Below, piece by piece: positions 8,793-33,215 of a stretch of DNA of 47,599 bases. Origin of the DNA: Phycisphaerales bacterium (lineage in GTDB: Bacteria > Planctomycetota > Phycisphaerae > Phycisphaerales > SM1A02); contig JABABM010000018.1 of NCBI GenBank assembly GCA_014238205.1, forward strand, positions 1-47,599, in the 5' to 3' direction. The translations under genes were made by a program, and so were the position numbers. Below the pieces are notes generated by a model, which made no database searches, had not been told where the DNA came from, and saw only the letters and a program-made list of their open reading frames with translations. The first letter of the stretch is position 1. Every line of letters starts with the position of its first letter.

Positions 8793-8827
8793 AAAGGGCC
8801 CCCTTTGGGGGCCCTTTCTGGTTTTTT
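8793..8827. terminator. Strong intrinsic terminator, possibly bidirectional
   Basis: An 11-bp perfect stem (AAAGGGCCCCC at 8793-8803, GGGGGCCCTTT at 8807-8817) with a TTT loop is followed by a T6 run at 8822-8827. It ends the small gene on the plus strand. Read on the minus strand it also has a short T-run and sits just past the stop of the A-type carrier gene, so it may serve both. Confidence 0.85.
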
Positions 8828-8844: not shown

Positions 8845-9213
8845 TTAAGCGCTGAAACTGCTTCCGCAGCCACAGGTATTGGTGGCATTGGGGTTGTTGA
8901 ATACGAAACCGCGGCCCATGACCTCGTCCTTGAAGTCGATTTCCGTCCCATTGAGGTACAGGTAACTTTTGGGGTCACAGATGATCTTCAGGTCGAAGAC
9001 CTTGACTTCATCCTCGCCCTCAAGGGGATACTCGTAGTTCCAGGTCTCATCAGAGTCCTTCGTATGCTCCGTGAGATCCAAGAGGTATGAGAATCCAGAG
9101 CATCCTCCCCCCTTCACACCAACGCGAAGGCTGATAGCCCCCAGGTCGAGTTCCTGCTGCTTGATGATGGAAACAATTTCCCTCGCAGCGGTTTCTGTCA
9201 CGGTTACAGGCAT
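8845..9213 (-). CDS. A-type iron-sulfur carrier protein (IscA/SufA/ErpA family)
   Basis: 122 residues, full length for the HesB/IscA family. It accepts Fe-S clusters from the scaffold and passes them to apo-enzymes in the cytoplasm. The three cluster-ligand Cys are visible: C38 in the GGGCSGFSY motif and C114/C116 in NTCGCGSS near the C-terminus. ATG 9213 follows a GAGGAG Shine-Dalgarno. The gene is divergent from sufB and shares its 177-bp control region, which contains a perfect palindrome and a minus-strand CTAGAAT box, so joint regulation with the suf genes is likely. It ends in TAA. The subfamily (IscA, SufA or ErpA) cannot be settled from sequence alone, so no symbol is given. Confidence 0.95.
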
Positions 9214-9265
9214 GAGATCAACTCCTCAATCCTCTTCTCCCGGGGTCATCCACCGGTACATATGT

Positions 9266-9273
9266 ATTCTAGG
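9266..9273 (-). promoter_or_regulatory. CTAGAAT-type -10 box for the A-type carrier gene
   Basis: Read on the minus strand this is CCTAGAAT, about 50 bases before the ATG at 9213. It mirrors the plus-strand copy at 9328-9335, with the palindrome between them. No clear -35 was found. Confidence 0.5.
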
Positions 9274-9301
9274 CCCTCGACCCGTGTTCAGATAGTCATG
9301 A

Positions 9302-9324
9302 CATTCTGGAATGATTCCAGAATG
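9302..9324. promoter_or_regulatory. Perfect 23-bp palindrome, candidate operator of the suf locus
   Basis: Arms CATTCTGGAAT (9302-9312) and ATTCCAGAATG (9314-9324) flank a single central G at 9313: 11 perfectly complementary bases per arm. It ends 5 bases before the plus-strand TAGAAT box, exactly over the -35/spacer region of the sufB promoter, a classic repressor or activator position. A dimeric Fe-S-sensing regulator (Rrf2/IscR or SufR type) is the natural candidate by analogy. I did not recognise the sequence as any published IscR or SufR site. Confidence 0.7.
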
Positions 9325-9327
9325 CAA

Positions 9328-9335
9328 CCTAGAAT
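9328..9335 (+). promoter_or_regulatory. CTAGAAT-type -10 box for sufB
   Basis: CCTAGAAT, about 55 bases before the sufB start and immediately downstream of the palindrome. The -35 position at the usual spacing falls inside the palindrome and does not resemble TTGACA, consistent with regulated initiation. Confidence 0.5.
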
Positions 9336-9390: not shown

Positions 9391-10857
9391 ATGATGCCAG
9401 AAGATCCAAATGCCGCCCTGGATACCTGGGCAGACCAGACCGACTACAAATGGGGCTTCGTCACCGATATCGAATCGGAGACGCTGCCACCAGGCCTTGA
9501 CGAGGATGTCATACGCGGCATCTCGGCCAGGAAACGAGAACCGGAGTGGCTGCTGGAATGGAGACTGAAGGCCTACCGGCACTGGTTGACCATGGATGAG
9601 CCGGAGTGGGCGCACTTCCCGGATCATGATTGGCGACCAATCGACTACCAGGCCATCTCGTACTACTCGGCTCCGAAGTCCGATGAGGATCGCCCAAAGA
9701 GCCTGGATGAAGTTGATCCCAAGCTGCTTGAGACCTACGAGAAACTGGGCATTCCGCTTGAAGAACGCGCCGCTCTTGCCGGTGTCGCCGTCGATGCTGT
9801 CTTCGACAGTGTCTCGGTTGCAACAACCTACAAGGGCAAGCTCAAGGAGGCAGGTGTCATCTTCTGCCCATTCTCCGAGGCTGTCCACGAGCACCCGGAA
9901 CTGGTGCAGCAGTATCTTGGTCGCGTCGTACCGGCGAATGACAACTACTTTGCCGCCTTGAACTCGGCCGTCTTCACCGATGGTTCCTTCGTCTTCATTC
10001 CCAAGGGCGTCACCTGCCCCATGGAACTGAGCACGTACTTCCGAATCAATGCCATGTCGACGGGGCAGTTCGAACGCACACTGATCATCGCCGAGGAAGG
10101 TGCCTCCGTGAGTTATCTCGAGGGATGCACTGCCCCGATGCGCGATGAGAACCAGTTGCATGCTGCAGTCGTTGAACTGATCGCCCTTGATGACGCATCC
10201 ATCAAGTACTCCACGATCCAGAACTGGTATCCCGGAGATGAGAATGGCGTCGGCGGCATCTACAACTTCGTCACCAAGAGAGGTCTCTGTGAAGGAGACC
10301 GGAGCCACATCTCCTGGACGCAGGTCGAGACAGGATCCGCGATCACCTGGAAGTATCCATCGTGCATCCTCAAGGGCGATGATTCGATCGGCGAGTTCTA
10401 CTCGGTCGCATTGACGAACATGAAACAGCAGGCAGACACGGGGACGAAGATGGTGCACCTTGGTCGCAACACCCGGAGCAACATCGTCTCCAAGGGCATC
10501 TCCGCCGGCAATGGACAGAACACGTACCGGGGCCTGGTGAAGATCCGCCCGAAGGCCGTCAATGCCCGCAACTACACCCAGTGCGACTCGATGCTCATGG
10601 GCGATCGATGCGGCGCACACACCTTCCCCTACATCGAGGCTGAGAATGACAGCGCGGTCGTCGAACATGAGGCCTCGACATCGAAGATCGGGGAAGACCA
10701 GATCTTCTATCTCAACCAGCGCGGCATATCCTCGGAGGATGCCGTGTCCATGATCGTCAACGGGTTCTGCCGCGAAGTTCTCGCGGAACTGCCCATGGAA
10801 TTCGCCGTCGAGGCGAGAAAACTTCTCGAGGTCAGCCTCGAGGACAGCGTCGGCTGA
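9391..10857 (+). CDS. sufB: Fe-S cluster assembly scaffold protein SufB
   Basis: 488 residues, normal for SufB (about 470-490). SufB is the main scaffold of the SufBC2D complex, where the cluster is built from SufS-derived sulfur. Family hallmarks are present: the N-terminal region with [11 protein letters not shown], the central beta-helix stretch [20 protein letters not shown], and the C-terminal [19 protein letters not shown] followed by the helical end with [15 protein letters not shown]. Two adjacent ATGs (9391, 9394) are possible; AGGA at 9383 fits 9394 better by spacing. The frame extends to 9262 but that part overlaps the promoter elements. It is the first gene of the plus-strand suf run, 29 bp before sufC. 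Confidence 0.97.
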
Positions 10858-10886: not shown

Positions 10887-11645
10887 ATGCTCAGTATCAA
10901 GAACCTCCATGCCTCGGTCGAAGGAACCCCGATTCTCAAGGGAATCGAGCTTGAGATTCCATCCGGCGAAGTGCATTCGATCATGGGACCCAACGGGTCC
11001 GGCAAATCAACCCTTGCCCGCGTCCTTGCCGGTGAAGAAACCTACGAAGTTACGAAGGGTTCCATCACCTTCAATGGAGTCGACCTGCTGGATATGGAGC
11101 CGGATGTTCGTGCACGCGAAGGCCTGTTCATGGCCTTCCAGTACCCCGTCGAGATCCCTGGAGTGAGCACGAAGTACTTCCTCCGAGCCGCCGTGAATGC
11201 CATTCGCGAACATCGAGGACTCGAGGAACTGGATGCCTACGAGTTCCTGAAGATGGTCAAGGAAAAGGCCCAGGTGCTCGACCTTGATACCAGCCTGCTG
11301 GATCGATCCGTGAACGAGGGCTTCTCCGGGGGAGAAAAGAAGCGGGCCGAGATCTTCCAGATGGCCATGCTGGATCCCACGATGTGCGTCCTGGACGAAA
11401 CGGATTCTGGCCTGGACATCGATGCATTGAAGGTCGTCTCAGACGGGGTCAATGCACTCCGGAACGAGCAGCGTTCATTCCTCGTGATCACGCACTACCA
11501 GCGACTTCTCAACTACATCGTTCCGGACAGGGTCCATGTGCTGATGGATGGGCGGATTGTCGAGAGTGGTGACCGCGACCTGGCATTGAAGCTTGAAGAA
11601 CAAGGCTACGCCGCCGTCGAGCACCCCTGTGGAGCCGACGCGTGA
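10887..11645 (+). CDS. sufC: Fe-S cluster assembly ATPase SufC
   Basis: 252 residues, the usual SufC length. It is an ABC-type ATPase that drives conformational changes in SufB-SufD. Walker [10 protein letters not shown] is at residues 34-42, the family-specific signature [10 protein letters not shown] sits near residue 145, Walker [13 protein letters not shown] follows, and the H-loop is ITHYQR. It has no membrane domain, as expected for this soluble ABC protein. It sits between sufB and sufD, and its TGA overlaps the GTG start of sufD (GTGA), implying coupled translation. Confidence 0.97.
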
Positions 11646-12958
11646 GCAGTACAACCATGAGTGATACCAGGCAGTTCCAGGATGACTTTGAAGCGATTGA
11701 TGCTTCCAGCCCGTTGGCCGAAATGCGCAGCGAGGCTTTTGAACGATTCCATGAACTGGGCTGGCCTACCACGCGAAGTGAGGCCTGGCGCTACACGAAC
11801 CTGAAGCCGCTCACCGCGGCAGACCTGTCGATGGCACCCAGTGCCTCCGTGGATGAGTCGGTCATCGAGCCATACCTCATCGAGGATGCGCAGGTTCACC
11901 GCATCGTGTTCGTCAACGGGCGATTTGATGACAGCCTGTCCGACATCGGCCAACTTCCCAAGGGAGTCACGGTCGGCCACCTTGCCGACGCGGTCACCGC
12001 AAACACCGATGCAGTCCTGGCTCACCTCGGCTCGACCTTCGATTGGAAGGCCGATGCGCTCGATGCCTTGAACACGGCCTTCATCGAGGATGGGCTCTAC
12101 ATCCACGTCCCGGCGAACACCGAGTTTGATCAGCCGGTGCACGTCCTGCACGTTACCGTGACGGATCCCGCCGTCACCGTCGTCACGCACCCGAGAACAC
12201 TGATTGTCGTCGAAGACGGCTCGCGAGCCACCTGCATCGAATCCTGCTTCGGTACAGGTGATGCCATGTGCCTGGTCAATCCTGTCACGGAAATCATCGC
12301 TGGACATGGCGCGCACGTGGACCACTATCGCGAGGTCCGTGAGGGCGAACAGACCTGGCACCTGGGCACGCTCGGCGTGACACAGGGCAACGATGGACAG
12401 GTGAACTCCTGCTGCCTCGCCCTCGAAGGCAAGGTCATTCGCAACGCGATGACCGGCACGCTGGAAGGCACCGATGCGATGGCCAACCTGCGTGGTCTGG
12501 CCTGGGGCAACGGGGATCGGCATATCGACAACTTCCTTCGCGTGAATCACATGAAGCCCGACTGCAACAGTCGCGAGTACTTCAAATACATCCTCGACGA
12601 CTCGTCCACCGCCTCCTTCACTGGTCGCATCTACGTCGAGCAGGATGCCCAGAAGACCGATGCCGTCCAGACAAACCGGAACCTCCTGCTCAACGAGAAG
12701 GCCAAGGTCTACACCCGGCCACAACTTGAGATCTTCGCCGATGACGTGAAGTGCACGCACGGTGCCACCATCGGGCGGCTGGACGAGGATGCCAGGTTCT
12801 ACCTCGAGGCACGAGGCATCGGCCGGGAAGCAGCCAACAGCCTGCTCATCTTCGCCTTCGCCAACGAGGTCATCGAGGACATCGCCTTCGAGCCTCTTCG
12901 TTCGAGACTCGAGACCATCCTGCTGGATCGCCTGCCCGATGGCGGGATGTTCCGCTGA
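11642..12958 (+). CDS. sufD: Fe-S cluster assembly protein SufD
   Basis: 438 residues from the GTG that overlaps the sufC stop; an ATG at 11657 (MSDTRQFQ) is an alternative start. SufD pairs with SufB in the SufBC2D scaffold and is needed for iron acquisition in E. coli. Visible hallmarks are the N-terminal [15 protein letters not shown], the beta-helix core, and the C-terminal [20 protein letters not shown] with the helical end [19 protein letters not shown], shared with SufB. The conserved His is in KCTHGATIG. It is the third gene of the run, 28 bp before sufS. Confidence 0.97.
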
Positions 12959-12986: not shown

Positions 12987-14234
12987 ATGGGAACTACCCC
13001 CACGACTTCAACCCGGGCATTCAACGTGAACTCGATCCGTTCCGAGTTCCCGCTGCTGCAACGGGAAGTCCACGGCAAGCCGCTGGTCTACCTTGATTCC
13101 GCCGCGACGACGCCCAAGCCCCAGGCGGTGCTGAATGCCGTTGCCGACTACGACATGCGATGCACGGCCAATGTCCACCGCGCCGTCCATGAACTGAGTA
13201 CCGAGGCGACCGAGGCCTACGAAGGCGCTCGCACCGCAGTGGCGACGTTCATCAATGCTGCCCGCCGCGAGGAACTTGTCTGGACACGAGGAACGACCGA
13301 GGCGATCAATCTCTTTGCATGGTCCTGGGGACATTCAAACCTGCAGGATGGTGATCACGTCCTGCTCAGCGAGATGGAGCACCATGCGAACATCGTTCCA
13401 TGGCAACTGCTTCGCGAGCGGGTGGGCATCGAGATCGACGTGGCTCCGATCACCGACGAGGGTGTGTTGACCGTGGATGCAGTCCTCAAATGCATTACTG
13501 ATCGAACGAAGTTGATCTCCCTTGCCTGGATCTCGAACGTGCTGGGCACAATCAACCCGGTGCAGGAGATCTGTGCAGCCGCACGTGAACGTGGCATCAC
13601 GACCCTGATCGATGCCGCCCAGGCTGTGCCCCATGCGCACGTCGATGTGCAGGCCGTCGGCTGCGATGCCCTGGCCTTCTCCGGTCACAAGATGTACGGA
13701 CCAACGGGCATCGGCTGTCTCTGGGCACGGCACGACCTGTTGGAAGCCATGCCCCCATGGCAGGGTGGTGGCGACATGATCAAGACGGTCAGTTTCGAGG
13801 AATCAACCTGGAACGACGTTCCCATGAAGTTCGAAGCGGGCACGCCCAACATTGCCGGTGCCATCGGACTGGGCGCAGCGGCCGCCTGGATCAGCGAACT
13901 GGGGTCCGACGTGATCGCCGCGCATGAACATGACCTGCTTGAACGTTGCGTTGAACGACTAAGCGCCATGGATCGGGTGCAGCTCATCGGAACGGCCTCC
14001 CGGAAGGCGGCCGTCGTGTCCTTCGTCATCGATGGCATGCATCCCCATGACGTGGGCACCTTCCTTGACCAGCATGCAATCGCCGTCCGCACCGGGCACC
14101 ACTGTGCATGGCCGTTGATGGATCGTTTCAAGGTCAACTCGACGGTACGTGCCTCGATGGGCGTGTACAACACGATCGAGGAAGTCGACGCCTTTGCCGA
14201 TGCACTTGAGCGGATCATCGAGGTGTTCGGATGA
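12987..14234 (+). CDS. sufS: Cysteine desulfurase SufS (group II)
   Basis: 415 residues. It is a PLP enzyme converting L-cysteine to L-alanine while loading a persulfide on its active-site Cys, the sulfur source for SufBCD. Substrate-loop and PLP hallmarks include YLDSAATTPKP near the N-terminus, EHHANIVPWQ, the PLP lysine K235 in SGHKMYGPTG, and catalytic C373 in RTGHHCAWP, the group II signature. ATG 12987 follows an AGGA. No separate sufE or sufU gene is visible nearby; the Rieske protein downstream occupies the place where such a partner often sits. Its stop overlaps the next start as ATGA. Confidence 0.97.
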   Translation: MGTTPTTSTRAFNVNSIRSEFPLLQREVHGKPLVYLDSAATTPKPQAVLNAVADYDMRCTANVHRAVHELSTEATEAYEGARTAVATFINAARREELVWTRGTTEAINLFAWSWGHSNLQDGDHVLLSEMEHHANIVPWQLLRERVGIEIDVAPITDEGVLTVDAVLKCITDRTKLISLAWISNVLGTINPVQEICAAARERGITTLIDAAQAVPHAHVDVQAVGCDALAFSGHKMYGPTGIGCLWARHDLLEAMPPWQGGGDMIKTVSFEESTWNDVPMKFEAGTPNIAGAIGLGAAAAWISELGSDVIAAHEHDLLERCVERLSAMDRVQLIGTASRKAAVVSFVIDGMHPHDVGTFLDQHAIAVRTGHHCAWPLMDRFKVNSTVRASMGVYNTIEEVDAFADALERIIEVFG

Positions 14235-14632
14235 GCATATTCACTCCCGAGGACCATCCCCTGACTGAAGCCGTCGGCAAGGCCCTGCGAAGCGTGCATG
14301 ATCCGGAGATCCCGGTGAACATCTTCGATCTCGGGCTCATCTACGAGGCGCGCATCGATGAACAGGCCGGCGTGCACATCACCATGACCCTGACAACGCC
14401 CAACTGCCCGATGGCCGAGGTCATCCCGGGCCAGGTCGAGCAGGCGGTCGCCGCCGTGGAAGGTGTCAGCGGCGTCGACGTGGAACTGACGTGGGAACCG
14501 ACCTGGGATCCGCAGATGATGACGGAGGCGGCAAAACTGGAACTGGACTTCACGGGCAAGTTCGATCCGGCGAAGTTGGCGAAGAAACCCATGGGCCTGA
14601 GTATCAATCGCAAGGAGCGGCCACGCGACTGA
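14231..14632 (+). CDS. sufT: SufT-like MIP18/DUF59 Fe-S maturation protein
   Basis: 133 residues; the ATG overlaps the sufS stop (ATGA). It has one MIP18/DUF59 domain with the hallmark LRSVHDPEIPVNIFDLGLIY and the Cys-containing TPNCPMAEVIPGQVEQAV. SufT-type proteins assist Fe-S cluster maturation or transfer and often sit at the end of suf operons; location here fits that role. The C-terminal tail (LDFTGKFDPAKLAKKPMG) is longer than the bare domain. The symbol is inferred from domain plus operon position; PaaD- or YitW-like naming is possible. Confidence 0.88.
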   Translation: MSIFTPEDHPLTEAVGKALRSVHDPEIPVNIFDLGLIYEARIDEQAGVHITMTLTTPNCPMAEVIPGQVEQAVAAVEGVSGVDVELTWEPTWDPQMMTEAAKLELDFTGKFDPAKLAKKPMGLSINRKERPRD

Positions 14633-14648
14633 CGTGGCTGGAGAACAG

Positions 14649-14960
14649 ATGGGTGATTTCAAGCGTGTTGCAATGCTCTCCGAGGTAGTGTCCGGAACCG
14701 TGATCGGCGTGGAGGTGGACGGGCAGCGTATTGCCGTTTGCAACCACGAGGGTGACATCCGCGCCGTGGACGGCACCTGCACGCATGCGGATGCCGACCT
14801 GTGCGACGGGGAGCTTGAAGACGGCGAGCTGGTCTGTCCCCTGCATTTCGCGACCTTCTGTACGAAGACCGGCCATGCGACTTCTCCTCCGGCGGATGAA
14901 CCACTGCGTGTCTACGAGGTGAAGGTCGAAGGCGAGGACATTCTTGTCAGGATTGACTGA
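14649..14960 (+). CDS. Rieske-type [2Fe-2S] ferredoxin
   Basis: 103 residues; the ATG at 14649 follows GGAG with spacing 5 (a GTG at 14634 would add five residues). The Rieske ligands are present in order: C44-x-H46 in GTCTHADADL and C63-x2-H66 in LVCPLHFATF. It is a stand-alone NirD or aromatic-dioxygenase ferredoxin-like fold without a transmembrane anchor, so it is cytoplasmic. It lies 16 bp after sufT, in the same run as the suf genes. Rieske proteins of this type are known in suf operons of other phyla (for example Actinobacteria), where an electron-transfer role in assembly is suspected. That role here is an inference. Confidence 0.92.
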   Translation: MGDFKRVAMLSEVVSGTVIGVEVDGQRIAVCNHEGDIRAVDGTCTHADADLCDGELEDGELVCPLHFATFCTKTGHATSPPADEPLRVYEVKVEGEDILVRID

Positions 14961-32372: not shown

Positions 32373-33215
32373 TCAGCCCTTCCCCATGCCGATCACCGAT
32401 CGATTCCCAGTCGCCTCACGCAACCAGTTCATCGATGCACGGGATCGATGAACACCGGCCCTGCTTGAACGATGCCACCACCATACAAGACCGAGGATGA
32501 GCAGGATCAGTGCTGCAAGCGCAAGTGAATCCCTGACATGGGTTGCTTCCGCCCCTGCCCCGATGCCCATTCCTATGAGCCAACCCAGGCCCAGTTGCGT
32601 GGTGACCGTGGGAATGGCGCTCATCGTCTCGGCAAGCATGAACTTCCAGATGCTCATTCTCGAAATGCCCGCAGCCGTTATCACCGTTGTACGACTGGCC
32701 GGTATGAACCGGCTGATGACCACGACCCAGATCCCGTACCGGTCGAACTGGTACTTGATCTCCAGGATGCGCCTTGGATGCATCAGTCGCCTGAACCAGC
32801 GAATGTTCAGGATCCGTCTTGAAAAGAGGCGGCATAGAACCATCCAGAGCGTGTCAGCCATGATCACGCCGAAATACGCTGCCATGATCGTGCCCCAGAA
32901 CGGCATGACCCCCCGCTCCATGAGCAGGCCGGCAGGAATGATGAAGATGTCTTCCCCGACAGCAACACCGATGCCTGAGAGCATGAGAAGGAAGAAGAGC
33001 AATGGTGGTCCATAGTCGGCAAGCGACTCCTGGACCTCGTCCTCTAGTTTTCCCTTCAAACCATCATGATGCGATGAGTCCCCGGCAACCGCCACATGGC
33101 TGCTGGTGGAATGAGATACCTCGGTACTGCCCGAGCATCCTGGCTGTAGAAAAGCAAGGGCACCCAGTATCAGCAGCACACCGGATCGGAGTGGAAAACG
33201 GTGTCGAGAATGCAT
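32373..33215 (-). CDS. DedA family protein with N-terminal lipobox-like signal
   Basis: 280 residues from ATG 33215; a longer form would start at 33299. The N-terminus has a hydrophobic segment ending LAFLQPGCSGS, a lipobox-like site, then a roughly 45-residue Ser/His-rich linker before the DedA domain. The domain has GIGVAVGEDIFIIPAGLLME and RFIPASRTTVITAAGISRM. It is tandem with another DedA gene and follows the UDP-sugar pyrophosphorylase gene by 22 bp. Sequence similarity between the two DedA genes suggests duplication. Confidence 0.88.
   Translation of the reverse strand: MHSRHRFPLRSGVLLILGALAFLQPGCSGSTEVSHSTSSHVAVAGDSSHHDGLKGKLEDEVQESLADYGPPLLFFLLMLSGIGVAVGEDIFIIPAGLLMERGVMPFWGTIMAAYFGVIMADTLWMVLCRLFSRRILNIRWFRRLMHPRRILEIKYQFDRYGIWVVVISRFIPASRTTVITAAGISRMSIWKFMLAETMSAIPTVTTQLGLGWLIGMGIGAGAEATHVRDSLALAALILLILGLVWWWHRSSRAGVHRSRASMNWLREATGNRSVIGMGKG

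Follow-up and report, generated by a model that had tools for sequence, protein, structure and literature searches.

The suf operon of this marine Phycisphaerales bacterium is preceded by a palindrome that probably serves a FUR-family repressor as its operator; the repressor is most likely of the group here called class B and would hold suf repressed until peroxide or iron stress sets in. Sequence comparison gives good support to the view that a FUR protein would bind this box; that such a protein binds and represses, which metal it carries and what it senses are our inferences. The palindrome, CATTCTGGAATGATTCCAGAATG, had been proposed in an earlier note on this DNA and is confirmed as a perfect 23-bp repeat at positions 9302-9324, with two 11-bp arms around one central base at 9313. 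It lies between the gene for an A-type Fe-S carrier (8845-9213, minus strand) and sufB (9391-10857, plus strand), and it contains a core FUR-type box of the 7-1-7 form, CTGGAAT-G-ATTCCAG, at 9306-9320, for which the consensus in relatives is TTRGAATNATTCYAA; neither feature is assigned to a strand. No other perfect palindrome in the window, the whole stretch of 47,599 nt that was analysed, combines arms of at least 9 with a single central base. Base composition predicts 0.016 such repeats with 11-bp arms per window, and an order-2 Markov model 0.05. Across the 2.44-Mb genome no second copy of the 21-bp core was found at up to three mismatches.

The operon itself runs on the plus strand. Its first gene, sufB, is followed by sufC (10887-11645), an ABC ATPase recognised from motifs read in the sequence, and by sufD (11642-12958), a SufB paralogue (E 6e-15). 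Three further genes, all named from reading the sequence, encode a SufS-type cysteine desulfurase (12987-14234), a SufT/DUF59-like protein (14231-14632) and a Rieske-type ferredoxin-like protein (14634-14960), the last of which is probably the end of the operon. The divergent carrier gene was assigned with Pfam (Fe-S_biosyn, PF01521). Near its 3' end, a perfect G+C-rich inverted repeat (AAAGGGCCCCCTTTGGGGGCCCTTT, 8793-8817) is followed by a T-run and has the appearance of a terminator that serves the convergent genes on either side. Another inverted repeat, GTTCATCGATGCACGGGATCGATGAAC, with 10-bp arms and a 7-base loop, is found at 32427-32453.

Two inverted CCTAGAAT boxes, at 9266-9273 on the minus strand and 9328-9335 on the plus strand, flank the palindrome. 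This sequence occurs 15 times in the genome, so that the boxes by themselves are not unusual, and since relatives read TAGAAT, TACAAT, TAGACT or TATAAT at the same places, we regard them as ordinary -10 elements. The sufB -10 hexamer, defined by the alignment of relatives, is TAGAAT at 9330-9335 (plus strand), and that of the carrier gene is TAGAAT at 9266-9271 (minus strand). Six close relatives, among which this genome is counted, share a distance of exactly 17 bp from the centre of the box to the start of the sufB -10, although the hexamer itself varies (TAGAAT, TAGAAT, TACAAT, TAGACT, TACAAT and TACAAT). With the -10 starting at this distance, the -35 would be covered by the left half of the box; its position, placed at 9307-9312 on the plus strand from a 17-bp spacer, is a poor match to TTGACA. 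On the carrier side the hexamer is TAGAAT in four of the six and TATAAT in two, at 38-43 bp from the box centre (42 bp in this genome), and control of the carrier gene by the box is possible. The earlier note had placed the palindrome over the -35 and spacer of the sufB promoter, which the constant distance to the -10 bears out, and its proposal of an operator at this promoter gains support from the retention of the palindrome at orthologous promoters with fixed spacing. The likeness that it saw between the half-site and the CCTAGAAT boxes is coincidental: the box positions vary among relatives as -10 hexamers do, and the boxes were rejected as parts of the operator.

Orthologous loci were retrieved by means of SufB from 61 genomes and from 80 named loci, the closest named relative being a Phycisphaerales MAG (SufB 94%). 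A search for the palindrome before the suf genes of related genomes, which the earlier note had suggested as a check, located the box in 14 Phycisphaerales genomes, before sufB or before the operon to which it belongs. In one of these, G001, the palindrome is identical to that of this genome (G000); it is altered before sufB in G002, G008, G036, UBA3158, G025, G022, G032, G054, G010, G015 and G031, and it is degenerate in G021, where 9 of the 12 consensus positions agree. Alignment of the 14 sites reveals a nearly invariant T-R-GAAT-N-ATTC-Y-A, which corresponds to the FUR-family 7-1-7 box TTRGAATNATTCYAA and displays the inverted repeat and AATnATT core of a FUR operator.

The box is also associated with the kind of regulatory gene found beside sufB. 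Nine loci have a FUR gene adjoining sufB, and eight of these carry the box at 11/12 or 12/12, whereas among the 62 loci with an adjoining Rrf2 gene only two have a box of at least 10/12. The eight FUR-adjacent loci with a box belong to Verrucomicrobiota-type genomes, several of them labelled Akkermansia or Verrucomicrobia, and in each the box precedes a fur-sufB operon in which the FUR gene stands immediately 5' of sufB. The ninth, G021, has the degenerate box, and its sufB is transcribed divergently from a class-B FUR gene. The Verrucomicrobiota-type FURs just 5' of sufB (L084, L098, L099, L119, L125, L135, L143 and L146) keep both CxxC pairs and have a Cys at the position of PerR D85 (RFCPNM), and with Cys as a ligand the regulatory site may sense a different metal or signal. 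A further arrangement is seen in G031 (L032), which has an Rrf2 gene inside the suf operon and a FUR-type box before it, and which is possibly an intermediate of a regulator swap between Rrf2 and FUR.

This genome, which is 95% complete, encodes two FUR proteins by Pfam profile. The candidate regulator, the class-B protein, whose gene lies outside the window on contig C2 at about 49777-50202 on the minus strand, scores 65.7 bits with the FUR domain, for which the cut-off is 23.1, and is thus a member of the family. Three groups can be told apart among the FUR proteins of the relatives: class A, which is nearly universal, class B, and a group resembling Zur. Class B forms a clade in the tree (100/99), and a 98/89 branch separates it, together with the suf-linked FURs of Verrucomicrobiota and the PerR references, from class A and the Zur-like group; several long branches leave the finer placement unsure. 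When the class-B profile was compared with solved structures, the best match was the B. subtilis PerR structure 2fe3 (E 7e-23), followed by the Leptospira and Campylobacter PerR proteins. The ligands of the PerR regulatory site are H37, D85, H91, H93 and D104, and these align with H34, D82, H88, H90 and D101 of the class-B protein of this genome. Four of the five positions are invariant across class B, and G036 has a Cys at the D85 position. The four cysteines of the structural zinc site, arranged as two CxxC pairs in PerR, are absent from all 14 class-B proteins. Scores with the NCBIfam equivalog models also fall far short of their cut-offs: the best PerR model gives 66 bits where 180 are required, IrrA 63.5 where 150 are required and Irr 60 where 170 are required. 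With the PerR ligands aligned, the structural-zinc cysteines gone and the scores under the cut-offs, class B would be a metal-dependent repressor of the PerR/Irr type, and we file it as neither. A shikimate-kinase gene follows the class-B gene in this genome and in UBA3158 (L010 1390-1911, L305).

The suf box and class B tend to occur together. Of the 14 genomes that carry the box at suf, 13 have class B, as do 2 of the 14 that lack the box (Fisher p 7e-5, from counts put together by hand). Perfect TTRGAATNATTCYAA sites were found in 24 of 397 genomes belonging to the class, namely in 14 of 59 genomes with class B and 10 of 338 without (p 4e-7); because the genomes are related, Fisher values overstate independence and these p-values serve as guides. 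The sole box-bearing genome without class B is G001, which is 65% complete and in which no FUR protein was found. Counted against a role for class B are G024 and G030, which have the protein but no suf box, and G158, which has a box at iscS and in which class B was not detected. Within one sister pair, UBA3158 has both the box and class B (split at contig ends), and ALOHA_ZT_35 (G035) has neither.

Perfect boxes elsewhere in the relatives point to a wider set of targets. In the order there are 20 such sites. One of them (G032 C25) is within an ORF, and the other 19 lie before the genes listed below; sites outside the order are mostly within ORFs or before unrelated genes. The 19 are found at suf in G054 and, before rrf2-sufB, in G031; at iscS in G038, G321 and G158; at catalase in G046, G223 and G396; at katG, a call just under the Pfam peroxidase cut-off, in G306; at SOD with a divergent sigma factor in G362; at that sigma factor in G332, G045 and G038 and, less closely, in G295; at a DCC1-like thiol oxidoreductase in G279 and G391; at cbiX in G243 and G186; and at the class-B gene itself in G295. 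Pfam confirmed catalase, SOD, DCC1, CbiX and the fold of the desulfurase, and some of the other names were read from the sequence. As the consensus was derived from suf sites alone, the catalase, katG, SOD, iscS and class-B sites test it independently, with the reservation that the narrowing of TTNGAATNATTCNAA to TTRGAATNATTCYAA came after the first catalase and iscS sites were known. In several Phycisphaerales (L209, L219, L221, L228 and L231) the gene behind the box encodes a member of the sigma-70 family, possibly an oxidative-stress sigma factor, in which the stretch TSWYHPVMD is conserved. The genes for the DCC1-like thiol-disulfide oxidoreductase and the CbiX chelatase stand directly behind perfect boxes in two related genomes each (L222, L223, L224 and L225).

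A box before catalase or peroxidase genes, as expected of a PerR-type regulator, is thus a feature of the relatives and not of this genome. Here a search for a second strong or convincing site found none, and the wider stress regulon is accordingly seen solely in the relatives. A further 48 weak matches in this genome (10-11 of 12 positions) were set aside, being mostly within ORFs or poorly symmetrical and none of them convincing.

We envisage that a class-B dimer loaded with Fe(II) or Mn(II) would occupy the 7-1-7 box, across the -35 and spacer in front of sufB, and RNA polymerase would be blocked, with the result that expression of sufBCDS-sufT-ferredoxin stays low. Oxidation of the protein by peroxide, or loss of its metal, would cause it to leave the box, and the ensuing derepression would provide more cluster-assembly capacity while clusters suffer damage. 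Peroxide (or iron loss) is the preferred releasing signal given that the targets are catalase, katG, SOD, suf and isc.

It is possible, if doubtful, that the operator and its class-B regulator are as described but that the protein is Irr-like, sensing iron or heme status and fitting suf to iron supply. The alphaproteobacterial Irr, which acts mainly on iron genes and is governed by iron or heme, is likewise a FUR-family protein, and its ICE motif is TTTAGAANNNTTCTAAA; the present box, very similar in sequence, appears to match this consensus and resembles it more closely than the PerR box given below. For class B the Irr and IrrA scores are near those for PerR, and the four structural-zinc cysteines are absent. 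In R. sphaeroides, Irr affects the expression of suf and katE (PMC3413700). Against an Irr-like role, all five PerR regulatory ligands are kept in this genome, class B stays under the Irr and IrrA cut-offs, and its box stands in relatives mostly at catalase, katG, SOD and Fe-S assembly genes, with no iron storage, iron uptake or heme-synthesis targets other than cbiX. We consider it improbable that the palindrome is bound not by class B but by the class-A paralogue (C39), even though this is encoded in the same genome, is nearly universal in the order and could bind too, the boxes of FUR-family proteins overlapping in sequence. Class A occurs throughout the order, including genomes without the suf box, whereas the box tracks class B, whose genes adjoin sufB (G021) and sit behind a box of their own (G295); the 98/89 branch, moreover, places class A apart from class B, the Verrucomicrobiota suf-linked proteins and PerR.

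Binding by a regulator of another family, whether Rrf2 (IscR or SufR), ArsR or unknown, appears very unlikely. Rrf2 is the usual neighbour of sufB in most other genomes, in many relatives its gene lies 5' of sufB in the same target operon, and G031 has both Rrf2 and the box. The box is almost never present at Rrf2-adjacent loci, however, its symmetry and AATnATT core are of the FUR type, and no Rrf2 protein was detected in this genome by Pfam profile at E 0.001, a search that was positive in 13 of 14 control genomes. The Rrf2/IscR/SufR partner was therefore rejected, and the evidence favours the FUR family over the Rrf2 or ArsR regulator that the earlier note had suggested. That note had not recognised the palindrome as a known IscR or SufR site, and this is upheld: this genome has a FUR-type box in place of such a site. 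There is next to no likelihood that the palindrome lacks a regulatory role, being a repeat that arose by chance or one that forms a hairpin in RNA. Such a repeat could fold when single-stranded, but it lies 5' of the sufB -10 and hence outside that transcript, and the would-be loop, ATNAT, is among its most conserved parts; a hairpin was rejected on these grounds. Chance is opposed by the low expected number per window and by conservation across genera.

The preferred reading, an operator for a class-B FUR repressor, has parallels in known systems. In S. mutans, PerR binds the sufCDSUB promoter directly in EMSA, PerR-box and Fur-box elements are found there, and the PerR box is quoted as TTATAATnATTATAA (PMC11631912). 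The present case resembles it in the predicted presence of a peroxide-type FUR regulator at a suf promoter, and differs in the organism, in the regulator subfamily with its missing structural-zinc cysteines, and in the box, where G/C stand in place of T/A four positions out from the centre. The Leptospira PerR structure 5nl9 aligns with most of class B, and the aligned stretch also lacks CxxC. In that organism sufB, catalase and perR rise together under peroxide (PMC7567364), but the phylum and protein subfamily are different and the Leptospira sufB, an isolated copy, adjoins ahpC.

Control of suf by FUR-family proteins is therefore already known elsewhere, through Irr and PerR. What is new lies in class B as a subfamily, in the box and the phyla that go with it, and in what appears to be an exchange with Rrf2 control. 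Nothing relevant on FUR or PerR acting at suf in either Planctomycetes or Verrucomicrobia came from the open literature; as subscription papers mostly lie outside it, this argues weakly for novelty. On a broader reading, which we hold to be evenly balanced, an unnamed Phycisphaerales FUR subfamily, without structural zinc and intermediate between PerR and Irr, would govern a peroxide/Fe-S regulon (suf, isc, catalase, katG, SOD and a sigma factor) through TTRGAATNATTCYAA and would have displaced Rrf2 at suf, with Verrucomicrobiota having a parallel fur-sufB operon behind the same box. The distribution, with both regulators represented in G031, suggests that control of suf has passed between the unrelated Rrf2 and FUR families within one order. 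Class B is a FUR subfamily that is named by no curated PerR or Irr model. The findings offer a regulator, an operator and a probable regulon that can be put to the test, both for Fe-S cluster assembly and for the defence against oxidative stress, in Planctomycetota and Verrucomicrobiota.
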